From: an uncultured Patescibacteria group bacterium | Lineage (GTDB): Bacteria > Patescibacteriota > JACMRA01 | Reading direction: 5' to 3' | Assembly: GCA_938041505.1 (NCBI GenBank) | Contig: CALITC010000004.1 | Location: forward strand, 47,228 to 111,227 | Length of the DNA stretch: 64,000 nucleotides | In this document: positions 16,102 through 24,817 of the stretch, one piece after another | Layout: each line of letters begins with the position of its first letter | Numbering within the stretch: the first letter of the stretch is position 1 | Notes under the pieces: generated by a model | What the model was told of the DNA's origin: nothing | Database searches by the model: none | What the model saw: only the letters and a program-made list of their open reading frames with translations | Position numbers and translations under genes: made by a program

Positions 16102-17724
16102 TTATTTCAAGACATCAACCCCTACATATACATATTCCCAAGCTTCTGGTTCAGGACCTTGGAGCAAGGCACCTTCAGGGTAGCTAGGAATAAAGCCAAA
16201 TCGCTTAGCATTATAATAGTTGTTAGCATTAAGCCATGCAAAAGCTTGAGTATTCTTAAATTCTGTAAAGTCTTCTACAGAACCCAAATCAGTAAAGTCC
16301 AAAGTTAGACCTGTATGATGCTTTGAATATCCAGGAATAGAAGAAGTCTGCAGTACGCTATCAATAACTTCATCTGCTTCCCCAGCAGCAATAGCCCTAA
16401 CATCAAAAACATCTCCATTTACCGAAACTGCAGCTGAATTCAATCTGCTAGTAAAGATATCTTGCTGTGTATCGGGAGAGCGAAAGCCTGAGACCAACCC
16501 TAGACTGATACCATCTTCAAGTGCAGCAGATTTCAAAGCTTCATAAGCAGTGGCTGCTATAGGATGCAGTAACTCATTCTCGACAGAAACAAGTACGTCA
16601 GCAGAAGCCTGGACTTGTAATTGATACCCTCTATCAGTTGCTATTTGAATAATTCTTCTATCAGCAGCGTTATCCCCGGTGATAACAGAGTCCGTAATCG
16701 GCGAAGTGTCTGGTTTTGGTACTCTATACCACTGCTGCTTGAACTCCTCCCCAGAAAAAAACTTATAATCAAAAGCATCTTCTCGGGCCAAACCCGGAGC
16801 GACAAACTGATTATCCTGGTCTTCACTTATAGTTTGCACAAGTTCATTAAACTTGATCACTAACTCGCTATAATTCTGATATTGTATGTCTTGCTCTTGC
16901 CCTACAAAATCATCTAAATAAGCTTTTTGAGTCGACAGATCCAAACCTGGATTAGTCTCAATAAGGTATCCATAATTGGAGATAGTTTTTTGGATGGTTC
17001 CTGTCTCTGCCTCAAGTAAACTCTGGAGCTTGGCTAAATATTCTTGTTTGTTTGTAATTGCAGCTTGGATATCTTCCGTCTCCAATGGCTCTGCAGGTAA
17101 AAGCGTGGGGTCTAATTCAAAATAACTCAAATACTGCACTGTTTGCAAAATTTCTTGATCCAAATCTTGATTTGAATTTTCTAATAAAGCCTGCTCTTCA
17201 ACAATCTTGGTTTTAATGGAATTCAGTTTTTGCTCAGCTTCATCTACTTGCAAGTAACTTAGCAAGCCCTCTTTGGTTTTGCAGTTAACACCTCCGAGAT
17301 CTATACCTTGCTGAATTGCATTCGTAAACGAGCTTCGACATTGATCAAGAAAATCCTGTCTCTGAGAAGATTGGGAATTAACATAAACATAACTCATTGC
17401 CACTAGGAAAAATAGAATTGCGCCAGCAAAAGTTAACATTGTATAGCTAAACTTAGGCTTACCATAGACCTTTTGTTTGATACCTTCTGTCTTGAATGCA
17501 GAACTACGCAAAGAATCAGGAGAAGTAAGTGAAGGCCTTGCCTGTCGCTGAGGTTTGGCAGATGTAGGAGGTTCCGCTTTGGGTTGAGAAGCTGGGCCAA
17601 CTGGACCGCGATTAAATTTAACCTTTTTTAGGTTAATCCTAACAGATGGCTTCCGAGTAGGCACCATCATATTCTTACGAGCATCAGCTTTATTTTGAAA
17701 GTATTGTTGAATCCATTTAATCAT
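16102..17724 (-). CDS. Membrane-anchored D-alanyl-D-alanine carboxypeptidase, VanY/M15B type
   Basis: 540 aa; TM near residue 100; LVSGFRSPDTQQDIF, SKHHTGLTLDFTD, AWLNANNYYNAKRFGFIPSYP. Confidence 0.9.
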   Translation of the reverse strand: MIKWIQQYFQNKADARKNMMVPTRKPSVRINLKKVKFNRGPVGPASQPKAEPPTSAKPQRQARPSLTSPDSLRSSAFKTEGIKQKVYGKPKFSYTMLTFAGAILFFLVAMSYVYVNSQSSQRQDFLDQCRSSFTNAIQQGIDLGGVNCKTKEGLLSYLQVDEAEQKLNSIKTKIVEEQALLENSNQDLDQEILQTVQYLSYFELDPTLLPAEPLETEDIQAAITNKQEYLAKLQSLLEAETGTIQKTISNYGYLIETNPGLDLSTQKAYLDDFVGQEQDIQYQNYSELVIKFNELVQTISEDQDNQFVAPGLAREDAFDYKFFSGEEFKQQWYRVPKPDTSPITDSVITGDNAADRRIIQIATDRGYQLQVQASADVLVSVENELLHPIAATAYEALKSAALEDGISLGLVSGFRSPDTQQDIFTSRLNSAAVSVNGDVFDVRAIAAGEADEVIDSVLQTSSIPGYSKHHTGLTLDFTDLGSVEDFTEFKNTQAFAWLNANNYYNAKRFGFIPSYPEGALLQGPEPEAWEYVYVGVDVLK

Positions 17725-17813: not shown

Positions 17814-18602
17814 TTATAAAGAGTTTAGCAATCGCTCTAAAGGATTGACTCCGCTATACCGATAATAAGAGTTGAATAATGGACTTCGATTAATCTCAAT
17901 AAGAACGTACCCACTGTCAGTTTTTGCAATGTCCAGACCTATCAAATCTCCTTTATTAGCATCTACAATGGGTTGCGCATATGCTATGAGATCTTCTGGT
18001 ACAGGAGTAACCCCAAGAACTTTAACTGTTGTATTATCTGTTTTTGATCTTTTTACCCCAGCTAGAGGAAGTATTTTATTACGCACTGCAAAAACTCTAT
18101 ATTCTTTCTCTAAAACTAATTTATTTTGAATTATATAATCAGCAGCATCCTCTTGTGGCACATTACCTACATCAAAGTAAATACCTTTTCCTCGACTAGA
18201 AATTCTTTCCTTGACTATGTAATCCCTCTCGACACCTAACCCATCAGAAAGTAATTGTGTGTTTGGCATAAAATCCTTATAAACCTGATATTGCAACCAC
18301 TTATCTTCTATCATAAAATCATCAAGCTTCTCAATACCATCTACAATATAAGCATCCTTGGAGTATTTTATAAGCGTTTCAAGTACTGCCCTGAGCCGTT
18401 CCAAGTCATATTCAGCGTTAAATGGGTCTCTGCAATAGATTGCATCAAAAGACTCCCTCTCAAGCATAGCTTGGAGCTCTTGCACTATTGTGTCGTAGTG
18501 AATCACGTCAACCAACCAATCACGCTTAATATTTGGCACAAAGAAGAGGGGTAATGAGCGATCTGAGACTGTTGTAACTATTAGTATTTTTTTCATAATC
18601 AA
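17814..18602 (-). CDS. ATP-grasp domain protein (RimK-like)
   Basis: DYIVKERISSRGKGIYFD, RVFAVRNKILPLAGVKR, IGLDIAKTDSGYVLIEINRSP. Confidence 0.8.
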   Translation of the reverse strand: MIMKKILIVTTVSDRSLPLFFVPNIKRDWLVDVIHYDTIVQELQAMLERESFDAIYCRDPFNAEYDLERLRAVLETLIKYSKDAYIVDGIEKLDDFMIEDKWLQYQVYKDFMPNTQLLSDGLGVERDYIVKERISSRGKGIYFDVGNVPQEDAADYIIQNKLVLEKEYRVFAVRNKILPLAGVKRSKTDNTTVKVLGVTPVPEDLIAYAQPIVDANKGDLIGLDIAKTDSGYVLIEINRSPLFNSYYRYSGVNPLERLLNSL

Positions 18603-18614
18603 AAGGTAAACTGT

Positions 18615-19250
18615 TTATGCAGGACGACGATCCTCGAGCGCTCGGACCATGGTGGCTTGATCCAGAGTGTCAGGATTATAATACATAGGCAAACCCTGGG
18701 CTAGCTTTGTAATATTAACTCGCTCGACCAGTTGTTTCTGAACCAAAATATCTTTGATGTAAGCAGTGGTTGCATCCCCACTAAACCCAGCTTTGAAAAA
18801 TAAAATCAGTTCCAATTCTGGCAAACCGCTCGCTAACAAATCTTGCACTCTACGCTCTAATAAATCGCCCAGCGTTGTATGCTCTGCAAAAATATTATCC
18901 AGAGGGGAAATTAAATTCGTCAACACATGATACCGACCTTTAAAAATCTGGCTTTTCTCTAGAGTAAGGACATCAGTAGGCTTCTCAACCAAGCAAAGCT
19001 GATGCTGCTTCCGGGAGGTATTTTCACAAATATCGCACAAACCACTAGCCAATGCCTGATCAGCAAAAAAACCACACTCCTTACAAAAAGTAACTTGTTG
19101 ACGCACCGAAGACAGGCTCTCGATAAGCTCTCCATACTTTTCAGGCGGCAGCTCAAGAATATCCAAAGCCAGTTTCTGAGAACTACGCACACCAACTCCA
19201 GGGAAATACTGCAGCTTACTCGCAAGTTCATACAACGGCTTAGGTAACAT
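18615..19250 (-). CDS. recR: Recombination protein RecR
   Basis: LQYFPGVGVRSSQKLALDIL, zinc motif CKECGFFADQALASGLCDIC, Toprim LCLVEKPTDVLTLE. Confidence 0.95.
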   Translation of the reverse strand: MLPKPLYELASKLQYFPGVGVRSSQKLALDILELPPEKYGELIESLSSVRQQVTFCKECGFFADQALASGLCDICENTSRKQHQLCLVEKPTDVLTLEKSQIFKGRYHVLTNLISPLDNIFAEHTTLGDLLERRVQDLLASGLPELELILFFKAGFSGDATTAYIKDILVQKQLVERVNITKLAQGLPMYYNPDTLDQATMVRALEDRRPA

Positions 19251-19373
19251 AATTACTCTAAGGTACAAAATAAGGCGTTTCTCGTCAACCAACTGTAGAA
19301 TTATGTTCTCCAGGTAAAGTATAGTAAGTGTTTTTTGACAGAATGGCATATTTGATATAGTATTAATAGTAAT

Positions 19374-20225
19374 ATGAACATGAATAATCTTTACTTGATA
19401 ACCAGACACAAAAAGAACCCAAGTGTGGTCAAGCGCCTTACTGAGGCAGCGTCAAAACGAAACATTGTCACCACAATCCTAAGCCCTGAAACATTTGACT
19501 TTACTGAATCTTGGAACCTAACAGCAGAAGACGCGGTATACAGGGTAGGTACTGACACAGGCTCGCAACTTATCGAAAAAATCTTAATCAATGAAAATGT
19601 TCGAGCTTTCTACGACCATCATAAAACAACGATTACTCCTGCAGAAAATGTAATTGAGGCCTCACTAATCCACCAAAAGCAGAAGCTCCCGATTATTAAA
19701 ACCGTTTTTAGCATAACCAAAAAAACTGAAAAGTTGAAAAAATATGTTGAATACCTTAATGGATTCCCTATTATTCTAAAATCCACCGGCGGCTCCCATG
19801 GTGTAGGAGTAATACGCATAGATTCGATGCAGTCACTTAAATCAGTAGTTGATGTTCTCTTGAGCTTAGACACCTCGTATATTATGCGAGAATACATAGA
19901 ACACGAAACTCAGCCACGTCTGATAGTCCTGGGTGATAAGGTGCTATCTTCTATCGAATACATACGTGTAGCGGAAGATTTTAGGAGTAACGCTGGCTCC
20001 AACTTACAAGGAAACCCAAAAGAGTTCGACCAACATATCCAAGATATCGCTGTAAAAGCAGTCCAATCCTTAGGGTTTGAATTCGGTGGTGTCGATATAC
20101 TAATCAACAAAAAAGGTGAGCCGTTCATTGCGGAAGTCAACTTACCATGTGCCTACCACGGGGTTTCAATGAGAACAGGATACGACATCTCTGGGGCAAT
20201 GATTGACTATCTTATCAATAAATAA
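19374..20225 (+). CDS. ATP-grasp ligase (RimK/glutathione synthetase-like)
   Basis: FPIILKSTGGSHGVGVIRIDS, MREYIEHETQPRLIVLGDKVL, FGGVDILINKKGEPFIAEVN. Confidence 0.88.
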   Translation: MNMNNLYLITRHKKNPSVVKRLTEAASKRNIVTTILSPETFDFTESWNLTAEDAVYRVGTDTGSQLIEKILINENVRAFYDHHKTTITPAENVIEASLIHQKQKLPIIKTVFSITKKTEKLKKYVEYLNGFPIILKSTGGSHGVGVIRIDSMQSLKSVVDVLLSLDTSYIMREYIEHETQPRLIVLGDKVLSSIEYIRVAEDFRSNAGSNLQGNPKEFDQHIQDIAVKAVQSLGFEFGGVDILINKKGEPFIAEVNLPCAYHGVSMRTGYDISGAMIDYLINK

Positions 20226-20235
20226 ACAAGTGACC

Positions 20236-21534
20236 ATGGCTAACACTAGCATGCTGGAATATAGAGAGGAAATAAATTGGCGAAAAAACGACATTACGAA
20301 AATAAAAAATGCTTTAGCAAAAACCACCCTACCAGCCGAGAAAGACATCTACAGATTGAAAATCATTGAGCACAAAAAAGCACTTAATTTAGCGCTTATT
20401 GTTAAAAAAATACAAGAATCTCAAGCATCAGCTGCAAAAAATTCTATCGATCTAGAATTAGAAAAAAAATTTATAATCGCTTACGAAGACTTATACCAAA
20501 CTACTCCTATCGAGCTAGTAAAGTCTGTGCTAAACAAAGAAAAGACTATTCACAATCTCAAAAGATTAAATGAGTTTAAACCGATTGTGTATCAGCAAGT
20601 CATTGATAAATTATCACCATATATTAATCAAAATGGCACATCTCCAACTTGCTATAACAAAAACACGTATAGTGGTTTATGGAACAGCGTGGCTAGTAGG
20701 GTTAACCCATTCCTAGAAGGTGTTGTGTTTGAGGATAAAGACCTTAATTCAGATGTAGTTAAAAAAATTTTAGAAAAAGTACTGATTAATATTCACAAGT
20801 GCGAAGGTATTTCCAATCAATGGAGCTGCAGAATATATGAAGAAAGTCCGACTTTTAGTATAAATCACACCAATAAAAGAATCAACATACCACCGCGCAG
20901 CAGAAACGGCATAAAATTAAAAGGTTTAGTGTACCATGAAATATTTACTCACGTTCTAAGGAGTATATATGCTCACAAACTTAATGTAATTAGTTCTTTA
21001 CCTGGTTATAAAGTGTTCGAAGAAGGCTTAGGTAAAACATTACAAAACCTTGCTGAAAACAAATCTCAAATGCAACTAGAGTCTTACTACCAACCAACCA
21101 TTGTTGCCCTAAGTCATGCAGGTCTAAGTCTGGCTGAAATTGAGGAATTCTTGCGTATCGACGGCACTCCAAATTACAATAAATACCTCAAAAGAGCAGC
21201 CAAGCGAACCATAAAAAGGCGCTTCTCAATAGAAACCTCTAGAGATATGCCTTTATATCCAAAAGATATGTCTTATGGGGTTGGCGGAAAGCTTGTACAT
21301 CACATGTGCAAAAGACACATTAATACATCTGATAAACATTTAAAAAGCGCCTTAAAAAAGGTATTTGATGCCATTCTTTTATGTAAGTTTGATCCAACAA
21401 ACACTAGTCACATAGCATATATTTTAGAGAAAAATGTTATTAACTTCGAATCACATGAGCAGGAGTCCTATAAGAATTTTTTGGGCAGCGAAGAATTATT
21501 AAAGATTCGTCAATTAATGCCAATAATAACGTAA
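20236..21534 (+). CDS. DUF1704 / tyrosine-carboxypeptidase (MATCAP)-like metallopeptidase
   Basis: GLVYHEIFTHVLRSIYAHKLNVISSLPGYKVFEEGLGKTLQ: HExxxH plus downstream EEGL as in the DUF1704 (QEGLA-motif) family; start trimmed to ATG outside the upstream gene. Confidence 0.75.
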   Translation: MANTSMLEYREEINWRKNDITKIKNALAKTTLPAEKDIYRLKIIEHKKALNLALIVKKIQESQASAAKNSIDLELEKKFIIAYEDLYQTTPIELVKSVLNKEKTIHNLKRLNEFKPIVYQQVIDKLSPYINQNGTSPTCYNKNTYSGLWNSVASRVNPFLEGVVFEDKDLNSDVVKKILEKVLINIHKCEGISNQWSCRIYEESPTFSINHTNKRINIPPRSRNGIKLKGLVYHEIFTHVLRSIYAHKLNVISSLPGYKVFEEGLGKTLQNLAENKSQMQLESYYQPTIVALSHAGLSLAEIEEFLRIDGTPNYNKYLKRAAKRTIKRRFSIETSRDMPLYPKDMSYGVGGKLVHHMCKRHINTSDKHLKSALKKVFDAILLCKFDPTNTSHIAYILEKNVINFESHEQESYKNFLGSEELLKIRQLMPIIT

Positions 21535-21552
21535 GTAACACATGTTAAAGAT

Positions 21553-22824
21553 CTATTTGATCTTACAAGTAACTAGCTCTCTTATAGTTAGTAAATCCGC
21601 CTCTAACACTTTTGGATCTTTATGTGCTAAAATAGCATAAGCAATTCGGCCATACCCTTTGTTCACAGGACCAACATTACTGCCTTCTTTTTTAACAACA
21701 GCAAATTTCACATAACTCTTTAGTTTCTCTATCTTTTCCTTACCACCAACTTTCTCGAGTACACCTTCTTTATCTGCCCAAAACTGTGGAGCAGCAGAAT
21801 GCTTGATAAGCTTGTCCTTCATCACAAACTCACCTCCTGTATAACAGCTTACAGCGTTCTGAATATGATCATAATCATAAGATTCTTTCAGAAGTTGCGC
21901 TCGATAACCACCTGTGCGCACATTAACCTCCACAATTTGAGCGGTGCCATCTGGCTTAATCTTGACTTCAGTATGCACTGGAGAACCTTTAATGTGTAGA
22001 GCCTTGATAGACTTAGTAACCGCATCGAGGACAACATCAGTCTCTTCATTATTCAAGCCACTATCATACCCAGAATAGTAAGTCTGGAAATCATCAAAAC
22101 CTAAATCATGACTGATGACCTGCTTGCAAACCGGAGTATGGACAATTTTTCCATCAGGAGATACATACGAGTCTACTGAGTACTGCTTACCGGTGATAAA
22201 CTCTTCTATAATAACTTGAGGCTTACGATATACATTATTTTCTGCATACACCTTGGCAACTCTATCAAATACATAACTCACTTTGGTAATTAGCTCTTCC
22301 ATATTGTTACAAATATTAACCAATTGACCTTTAGTTAAATTAGCAGGTTTAATTATAACCGGAAAACCATGTTTTCTAGCAAAAGTATAAGCACCGTGGA
22401 ACGTTCTTACTCTCTTGAAAGCAGGTGAAATCTCAGGATATACTTTTTGGAACTCTTGTCGTTGAAAAAATTTATTCGTCATGCTCTTGGCAATAGAAAC
22501 CGGTAATGTTTTAGACTGTTTGAGGTTGAATAATTCCGCAATTATACTAGTTGCGTAAAAAAACCTATCCATATTACATACCAGCACTGTGTCAGTATGA
22601 AACATAAAACCTTTCAAAGATTTAGTGATTTTATCCCTATGTCTCAAGTCAGCAGGAATAATAAAGTCAATCTGAGGCAGGGTTTTCTCCTTAAAAGCTG
22701 TACTGGTTAGCGGTGAATTAATATCTTCAATAACGCCAATTGCATAATCCATCTTGCGAAAATATTGAACATTGGATAAGACAGGGTAACCAACAAAGAT
22801 TGCAATTTTAGTATTTTTATTCAT
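21553..22824 (-). CDS. ATP-grasp enzyme (carboxylate-amine ligase type)
   Basis: HGFPVIIKPANLTKGQLVNIC, VIIEEFITGKQYSVDSYVSPDGK, VHTEVKIKPDGTAQIVEVNVRTGG. Confidence 0.85.
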   Translation of the reverse strand: MNKNTKIAIFVGYPVLSNVQYFRKMDYAIGVIEDINSPLTSTAFKEKTLPQIDFIIPADLRHRDKITKSLKGFMFHTDTVLVCNMDRFFYATSIIAELFNLKQSKTLPVSIAKSMTNKFFQRQEFQKVYPEISPAFKRVRTFHGAYTFARKHGFPVIIKPANLTKGQLVNICNNMEELITKVSYVFDRVAKVYAENNVYRKPQVIIEEFITGKQYSVDSYVSPDGKIVHTPVCKQVISHDLGFDDFQTYYSGYDSGLNNEETDVVLDAVTKSIKALHIKGSPVHTEVKIKPDGTAQIVEVNVRTGGYRAQLLKESYDYDHIQNAVSCYTGGEFVMKDKLIKHSAAPQFWADKEGVLEKVGGKEKIEKLKSYVKFAVVKKEGSNVGPVNKGYGRIAYAILAHKDPKVLEADLLTIRELVTCKIK

Positions 22825-23149: not shown

Positions 23150-24817
23150 ATGACACCTATATTTCGAACTAGACAAGCCCCCTCCCCAACCGGTTATCTC
23201 CATCTTGGAACCGCCAGGCAAATGCTCTTCACCAATCTATTTGCCAAAAAAAATAATGGTGTATGGTTCGTACGACTAGAAGACACAGATCGAAGCAGAC
23301 TACAGGCAGAATCAGTCAAAAACCTACTAGAAGCAATGGCGGGCTTGAGCCTTACCCCCGACGAGGGAATTACACTGGAAGTTACCAAGACACACAACGA
23401 ATACTACGACATCTACCAAAAAGGTGAGTATGGACCGTATATCCAATCTGAAAGACTTAGTCACTATCACGAAGCAGCCCAAAGACTGATCTCCGAAAAA
23501 AAAGCTTATTGGAACTTCCTAACCCCAGAGCAAAAAGATGAACTTCGCAACTTCAAAAAAATAACCAAAGCCCCTATCGATTACCTCAAAGCTAATCAGG
23601 ATAAATACCCAGAATTAGATCTATTCATGAGTGTCGACGAGGGTCTAGCCAATACTCAAAAACCTGCTCTCATGTTCCATCTGCAGCGAGATGAGACTAT
23701 AACTTGCTTAGACGAGCTCCTTGGCAAAACCACTTTTGATCTTAATCTTGAAGAAGATTTTGTCATACTTAAGTCAGACGGGTTCCCAACCTACCATCTC
23801 GGCTTTGCGGTAGATGATCACCTAATGAAAACAAGTCTTATCATTCGGGCGCAAGAATGGTACCCTTCTCTACCCAAGCACGTCACAATTCTCAAAGATT
23901 TATGGGGCCAAGACCACGGTATCAAATTCGTTCACTTACCAGTAATCCTTGGAGAAACCGGCAACAAAAAAATGAGTAAACGAGATGGCAACGTAAATAT
24001 GACCGATTATCTCGACCAAGGATATTTGGCAGAGGCCACCATTAATTATCTAGCTTTCCTAGGCTGGAATCCAGGTACAGAGAAAGAACTCTACTTAAGC
24101 GAAGACGAGCTAAACACCATCAAGACAAAAGAAACTCGAGTTCAGAAAATTATCGAGAATATTATTCCAGAATTTACCATGGAGAATATTTCCAAATCTT
24201 CTGCTAGATTCAACTTAGAAAAACTCAATTGGTTCAATAGAGAGTATATCAAAGCCATGAATTCAAACACTTTTGCAAACGAAGTGAGTAACTATCTCGA
24301 CCACCTAGCCACAAAGAAGGAAGAGAAAACTCAAGACATCCAAACTCAAATTCACCAAAACCTAGGCGACTACAAGGCAAACAACTCCGAAGAGCTTATC
24401 AAATTAGCCTTTATGCTCGACCAAAATAGAATCACTACCTTATCAGAATTAGGCACTGACAGTAAATGTATCCTCAACTGGCAACAACCAACACTAGAGG
24501 ACATTAAGTGGAAAAAAAATACTATCGAGGAGAGTCTATCTAATCTCAAAGAAATTGGAGATTTCATAAGCTCCAAGTGGAACACAATCGACTTACCTCA
24601 AGATAAATCCAGCCTGAGCTATGTCACTGAAGCCGCCAGCGTATGGGAGGATGTAATCAAGCAATGGCTCAACGAGAGCGACAAAGGCATTGGTGACTAC
24701 CTATGGCCTCTCCGAGTCTGCCTCTCCGGACAAAAACGATCCCCAAGCCCTTTTGAAATCCTAGGAATTCTAGATCAAGAAGAAGCAAAACACCGAATAG
24801 ATCTATGCAAAAAATAA
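23150..24817 (+). CDS. gltX: Glutamyl-tRNA synthetase
   Basis: RQAPSPTGYLHLGTAR (HIGH-like), VRLEDTDRSR, KKMSKRDGNVN (KMSKR). Confidence 0.95.
   Translation: MTPIFRTRQAPSPTGYLHLGTARQMLFTNLFAKKNNGVWFVRLEDTDRSRLQAESVKNLLEAMAGLSLTPDEGITLEVTKTHNEYYDIYQKGEYGPYIQSERLSHYHEAAQRLISEKKAYWNFLTPEQKDELRNFKKITKAPIDYLKANQDKYPELDLFMSVDEGLANTQKPALMFHLQRDETITCLDELLGKTTFDLNLEEDFVILKSDGFPTYHLGFAVDDHLMKTSLIIRAQEWYPSLPKHVTILKDLWGQDHGIKFVHLPVILGETGNKKMSKRDGNVNMTDYLDQGYLAEATINYLAFLGWNPGTEKELYLSEDELNTIKTKETRVQKIIENIIPEFTMENISKSSARFNLEKLNWFNREYIKAMNSNTFANEVSNYLDHLATKKEEKTQDIQTQIHQNLGDYKANNSEELIKLAFMLDQNRITTLSELGTDSKCILNWQQPTLEDIKWKKNTIEESLSNLKEIGDFISSKWNTIDLPQDKSSLSYVTEAASVWEDVIKQWLNESDKGIGDYLWPLRVCLSGQKRSPSPFEILGILDQEEAKHRIDLCKK

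Follow-up and report, generated by a model that had tools for sequence, protein, structure and literature searches.

Gene organization at the locus

The window analysed here is a 64,000-nt stretch of contig CALITC010000004.1 (assembly GCA_938041505.1) from an uncultured Patescibacteria group bacterium, whose Patescibacteria-type genome spans 1.12 Mb and is 69% complete. Its named relatives within the family are metagenome-assembled genomes labelled Gracilibacteria, SR1 and Peregrinibacteria. An earlier, sequence-only reading of the window had singled out three ATP-grasp ligase genes and one metallopeptidase gene, all of which lie where it had placed them (Table 1). Two of these, encoding a RimK-family ligase (hereafter the 19374 ligase) and a MATCAP/DUF1704-like peptidase, are adjacent and co-directional as described, the stop at 20225 and the start at 20236 being 10 bases apart. 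The peptidase most likely begins at this proposed ATG; a TTG at 20203, taken from a mechanical list of open reading frames (ORFs), lies upstream and is the less likely start. For recR, the start had been put at 19409 and is corrected here to ~19250 (MLPKPL...), so that the gene does not overlap that of the 19374 ligase. Recoding of TGA was rejected, as this codon ends 5 of 46 long ORFs, and translation table 11 was therefore retained.

Table 1 Features of the ligase–peptidase locus (window coordinates).
Feature	Position	Strand	Basis
RimK-family ATP-grasp amino-acid ligase, writer candidate	19374..20225	+	PF08443, TIGR00768, PDB, alignment
MATCAP/DUF1704-like metallo-carboxypeptidase candidate, 432 aa (amino acids), eraser candidate	20236..21534	+	independent profile, AlphaFold2 (AF2), Foldseek
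HExxxH motif HEIFTH, residues 234-239; two metal ligands and catalytic Glu	20935..20952	+	alignment
EEG motif, residues 262-264; third metal ligand	21019..21027	+	alignment
L-amino acid ligase (LAL)-type ATP-grasp, L-amino acid ligase/dipeptide synthase like; possible accessory	21553..22824	-	ATP-grasp_4, LAL_C2
Divergent R2K/RimK-like ATP-grasp	17814..18602	-	sub-threshold Pfam scores
recR, bystander; marks the locus jointly with gltX	18615..19250	-	TIGR00615 162 bits, 1.1e-47
gltX, locus marker	23150-24817		

A divergent MATCAP/DUF1704 peptidase candidate

MATCAP, an eraser of tubulin tails, was characterized in 2022-2023. Scanned directly against Pfam, NCBIfam and, by phmmer, the PDB, the window's peptidase gave nothing meaningful, including no match to PF08014; relatives were therefore needed to classify it. 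These were gathered by searching with the peptidase and then with an alignment of its first matches against 384 genomes of the phylum. With the query alone, the matches were a paralogue (1.4e-26) from the window's own genome plus relatives from four others, while the alignment of these first relatives found matches in 85 of the 384. Scanned one by one, 53 of 55 aligned relatives matched PF08014 and 51 matched the QEGLA family (TIGR02421). A profile of 52 relatives, from which the window protein and the two sequences closest to it were left out, scored the window protein at 81.9 bits (E = 2.5e-24), and profile A2, in which the window protein is included, matched human MATCAP (7z5g) at 1e-45. 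Because of the independent profile score, and despite the missed Pfam cut-off, we assign the protein to the MATCAP/DUF1704 family (PF08014) as a divergent member and a candidate for peptidase activity. Long branches in the tree make its position within the family uncertain.

The HEIFTH and EEGL motifs noted earlier are present as HEIFTH and FEEGLG, and H234, E235, H239, E263, G264 and Y347 are invariant across the window protein and 54 relatives. E235 aligns with the catalytic E281 of TMCP1/MATCAP and E263 with the metal ligand E316; mutation of E281 or E316 strongly lowers the activity of that enzyme, and MATCAP/TMCP enzymes are carboxypeptidases acting on acidic tails (PMC10499314). A first AlphaFold model built from 6 sequences was poor (predicted local distance difference test, pLDDT, 57), while an AF2 model from 55 sequences reached a pLDDT of 87.6 and a predicted template modelling score (pTM) of 0.88. 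The residues of the gluzincin zinc site, whose absence from a structure prediction was to count against the proposed system, are intact in alignment and model alike (H234, E235, H239, E263). The top five Foldseek matches in the PDB were all human MATCAP (prob 1.00), the only credible ones, though with low global template modelling scores. The DUF1704 likeness stands on the independent profile, whereas the Pfam HMM (hidden Markov model) scan put forward for it finds nothing.

The paralogue in the window's genome (L012:466-1947 on G000:C17; 493 aa) lies near a contig end and adjoins phosphoketolase-like and acetate-kinase-like genes, identified by eye. An unannotated MATCAP-like match was also seen in Pseudomonas phage Y1 (OQ572403.1, 63524-64717; 24% identity, 3e-12), the only phage record with such a match.

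Three ATP-grasp ligases of different type

The proposed RimK likeness of the 19374 ligase is borne out by PF08443 (3.3e-26, above cut-off) and by catalytic residues: K136, R182, N206, D241, E254 and N256 do not vary when the protein is aligned to four RimK-type ligases. Its TIGR00768 score of 102.7 bits falls below the cut-off of 143.4, and its nearest solved structures are those of the S6-L-glutamate ligase RimK (5zct/4iwx, 1.7e-21). The third ATP-grasp protein (21553), read before as a carboxylate-amine-ligase type, is of the LAL type, with matches to ATP-grasp_4 (1.3e-19) and LAL_C2 (9e-8) and BL00235 (3vot, 2.4e-18) as its nearest solved structure. It is 44-53% conserved in three family relatives, two of them without detectable MATCAP, and for 8 MATCAP genes an LAL-type gene lies no more than 2 kb away. 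In one genome (L180:7670-10223, G002), the family's LAL ligase adjoins a Mur-ligase-like gene that looks like the C-terminal half of cyanophycin synthetase. The 17814 product had been called RimK/glutathione-synthetase-like; it is ATP-grasp-like, yet weak and divergent, scoring under all curated cut-offs (R2K_3, 21.9 of 26.3 bits; RimK, 19.1 of 21). It had no relative in 37 other genomes and probably stands outside the conserved module.

Ligase and MATCAP genes are linked and fused across Patescibacteria

Conservation of the ligase–DUF1704 neighbourhood had been suggested as a check, and co-occurrence and fusion of the two extend phylum-wide. Flanking DNA was available for 82 MATCAP genes. In 33 of them, the MATCAP part is fused behind an ATP-grasp domain resembling alpha-L-glutamate ligases (TIGR02291, ATPgrasp_ST), and 73 are either fused to ATP-grasp or have an ATP-grasp ORF no more than 5 kb away; the linked loci are spread over ~28 family codes. 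Forty control regions of 17 kb each, taken from these same genomes, held no ATP-grasp match in their entire 680 kb, and 0 of 116 control ORFs had an ATP-grasp nearby (Fisher p ~1e-44 for MATCAP loci versus controls, ignoring relatedness). Without the four MATCAP loci that had supplied search seeds, 69 of 78 genes are linked. The fusion proteins score for both ATPgrasp_ST/TIGR02291 and MATCAP/QEGLA, and a RloB-like seven-transmembrane (7TM) gene adjoins many of them. A second arrangement, seen in seven loci (L009, L056, L071, L089, L098, L106 and L119), combines RimK, a RimB-type retropepsin and MATCAP. The window's own trio recurs in a genome of another family (G339, L115), where an LAL-type ligase is present and a RimK-like ligase gene lies 50 bases before MATCAP; in the set searched, no ligase matches the 19374 ligase better than this RimK-like one.

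These data bear on whether the two genes are chance neighbours in a compact genome that work separately. The four-gene cluster is not kept as a unit and the LAL and 17814 ligases behave independently, as this explanation would have it. Fusion and adjacency across the phylum versus zero in controls, together with the matching trio in G339, nevertheless argue against it, the fusions contradicting chance for the family at large, and we regard it as improbable.

In the ligase–MATCAP fusions (L062:7881-10253, L055:6450-8804 and others), the middle region resembles the end of a retropepsin (IGRRDLxxFLIDP) and lacks a DTG-type catalytic motif; it is possibly a dead retropepsin, with MATCAP the active peptidase. 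In two further loci (L107:7611-11144 and L117:7638-11202), pyrimidine-biosynthesis-like genes are followed by consecutive genes for MATCAP, an LAL-type ligase and an M20/PepT-like peptidase, which places two peptidases with a single ligase.

A variable MATCAP cassette at a conserved genomic site

In one family genome (G001), gltX, the LAL ligase gene and recR follow each other with nothing between. In another (G004), gltX and recR flank a MATCAP cassette, with MATCAP, two GNAT/FemAB-like genes and a D-Ala-ligase/RimK-like gene placed between LAL and recR; the GNAT/FemAB-like label is our own reading, with no Pfam or NCBIfam match. The window has the RimK-type ligase and MATCAP genes at that same site. 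Hence, one conserved site holds a MATCAP cassette that varies among genomes, and the LAL gene stays in place. The sequence-only reading had joined all four genes into one system; the pair of 19374 ligase and peptidase is kept and is the conserved core, but the 17814 gene has no relative in the 37 other genomes and LAL persists in a relative without MATCAP.

A search of the six family genomes for the RloB-like 7TM protein (PF14402) gave no match, nor did any control genome match. Within the window, a large VanY-type D-Ala-D-Ala carboxypeptidase gene with an N-terminal membrane-anchor-like stretch (16102-17724) lies downstream of recR and the 17814 gene on the same strand. PADLOC returned no defence-system match. 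A graspetide or other RiPP (ribosomally synthesized and post-translationally modified peptide) was rejected, as the two gaps checked held no convincing precursor ORF.

The S6 tail as a candidate target

RimK of E. coli and Pseudomonas acts on ribosomal protein S6 with a free Glu C-terminus. A glutamylation cycle on the S6 tail, with MATCAP replacing RimB, would fit the closeness of the window ligase to RimK. It would also fit a relative (G002, L181:8902-10573) in which rpsF, there an S6–S18 fusion gene whose product ends in Glu, is immediately preceded by a RimK-like ligase gene, as well as the terminal Glu of S6 in 5 of 7 genomes with RimK, RimB and MATCAP. In the window's genome, however, S6 and S18 form one ~195-aa protein (L202:1492-2079; G000:C7, about 18166) that ends in ...FTTKHYK, leaving neither a free tail nor a terminal Glu. 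Because S6 is fused to S18, its tail is an unlikely target here, and with the KHYK ending we ruled it out for this genome; we consider the S6 cycle highly improbable. S6 is likewise fused to S18 elsewhere in the family, in four relatives (L218, L220, L221 and L222); of the five fusions, three are Pfam-confirmed and two were identified by eye. A single literature search turned up no paper describing an S6–S18 fusion.

A predicted module for adding and trimming C-terminal residues

The gene pair is characterized by homology, conserved active-site residues and genomic linkage. From its families we predict, with about even confidence, a two-gene add/trim module in which the ligase would extend a C-terminus and the MATCAP-like peptidase would shorten it. 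At the expense of ATP, the RimK-type ATP-grasp enzyme would attach an amino acid, most probably L-glutamate, the acceptor being the C-terminal carboxylate of a peptide or protein; the metallopeptidase would then take off C-terminal residues, thereby setting or resetting chain length. The chemistry, the amino acid and a cytosolic location are suggested by family membership and sequence, and we infer the substrate and the reversibility. This add/trim reading is reasonable, given that ligase and peptidase genes occur together and as fusions throughout the phylum and that the metal site keeps its residues. The add/remove or peptide-synthesis function offered by the sequence-only reading holds up to that extent, with substrate and chemistry staying conditional. 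Given that relatives of the peptidase are fused to an Rlo-type ligase next to an RloB-like membrane protein, or lie beside RimK and a RimB-type retropepsin, the MATCAP domain seems to recur as a length-control element in bacterial systems built on amino-acid ligases.

Several observations weigh against the module. The partner ligase varies (RimK-like, AGL-like, cyanophycin-synthetase-like or LAL, with GNAT-like genes in G004), and one common substrate is therefore unlikely. Four of the six family genomes have no detectable MATCAP, which is weak evidence as all are incomplete, and a RimB-type retropepsin (PF05618) was not found in these six incomplete genomes, while a control search matched. 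The C17 paralogue has no ligase in the contig-end stretch examined. Foldseek TM (template modelling) scores to human MATCAP are only 0.30-0.41, with a root-mean-square deviation of 13-15 Å, and for bacterial MATCAP-like proteins a literature search turned up no biochemical data at all.

A serious rival, possible though the less favoured, is free peptide synthesis: the ligases would make a short non-ribosomal peptide for osmolyte, storage or cell-surface use, which the peptidase would trim or recycle, and no protein target would be involved. Mixed ligases do cluster, examples being G004, which also has two uncharacterised FemAB/GNAT-like proteins, and family f18, where four ATP-grasps lie together, and relatives of the LAL type are dipeptide synthases. 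Alphaproteobacterial operons pair QEGLA with a glutathione-synthase-like ATP-grasp and N-formylglutamate amidohydrolase, and in Photobacterium low salinity strongly induces two genes, annotated GshB and QEGLA, whose locus tags are consecutive (PMC10308900). The window core, by contrast, comprises only one RimK-type ligase and one peptidase, with no adjacent transporter or convincing precursor gene, and in the precedents of MATCAP and RimB the substrates are protein tails.

Relation to known ligase–peptidase systems

Operons of ATP-grasp and DUF1704 genes are already annotated in Proteobacteria, so that the ligase–peptidase kind is known. On annotated proteobacterial plasmids, N-formylglutamate amidohydrolase, QEGLA and glutathione synthase are consecutive in 3 of 5 contexts opened. 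In these QEGLA (TIGR02421) operons of Shinella, Aminobacter and Roseateles plasmids, a DUF1704 protein directly adjoins an ATP-grasp ligase as in the window, but the ligase is of another subtype and their amidohydrolase is absent from the window. A literature search, which did not cover the 2009 amidoligase survey (PMC3268129), turned up no paper linking DUF1704 by name with ATP-grasp, nor did any study of bacterial MATCAP relatives turn up. The ligase–MATCAP fusions and their phylum-wide spread look new, and the fusion offers a direct clue to the role of the bacterial MATCAP family.

The window's peptidase resembles the MATCAP/TMCP tubulin carboxypeptidases (KIAA0895L) in its HExxxH and EEG metal site, its family by profile and its top fold match; unlike them, it is bacterial and divergent, has no tubulin to act on and is a candidate for the activity only. 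The parallel drawn earlier with tubulin-tyrosine ligase (TTL) and MATCAP holds by family only. It is conceivable, if rather unlikely, that Patescibacteria possess a reversible code on the tails of specific proteins, with ATP-grasp ligases as the writers of C-terminal residues and MATCAP peptidases as their erasers, and that eukaryotic TTL and MATCAP descend from such modules; this would offer a bacterial model for the origin of the tubulin code's enzymes.

Closer precedents come from bacteria. In the Pseudomonas RimK–RimB system of S6 polyglutamylation, an ATP-grasp glutamate ligase likewise has a dedicated peptidase next to it, RimB removes the glutamates that RimK adds, and hybrid RimBK fusions exist (PMC11957791). 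RimB, however, is an aspartic retropepsin, whereas the window's peptidase is a MATCAP metallopeptidase, and the free S6 tail is absent here. The Rlo operon comprises the RloA retropepsin, RloB 7TM protein and RloC ATP-grasp, which genetics link to one another (PMC12239564). The Patescibacteria fusions are RloC-like (TIGR02291), their neighbour is RloB-like (NF052267, 7TM_transglut), and in L010 the region after the ligase weakly matches RloA. Unlike Rlo, the fusions carry an extra C-terminal MATCAP domain, and neither RloB nor a retropepsin was detected in the window. The ligase-with-peptidase idea embodied by RimK–RimB and Rlo would thereby be extended to a metallopeptidase.

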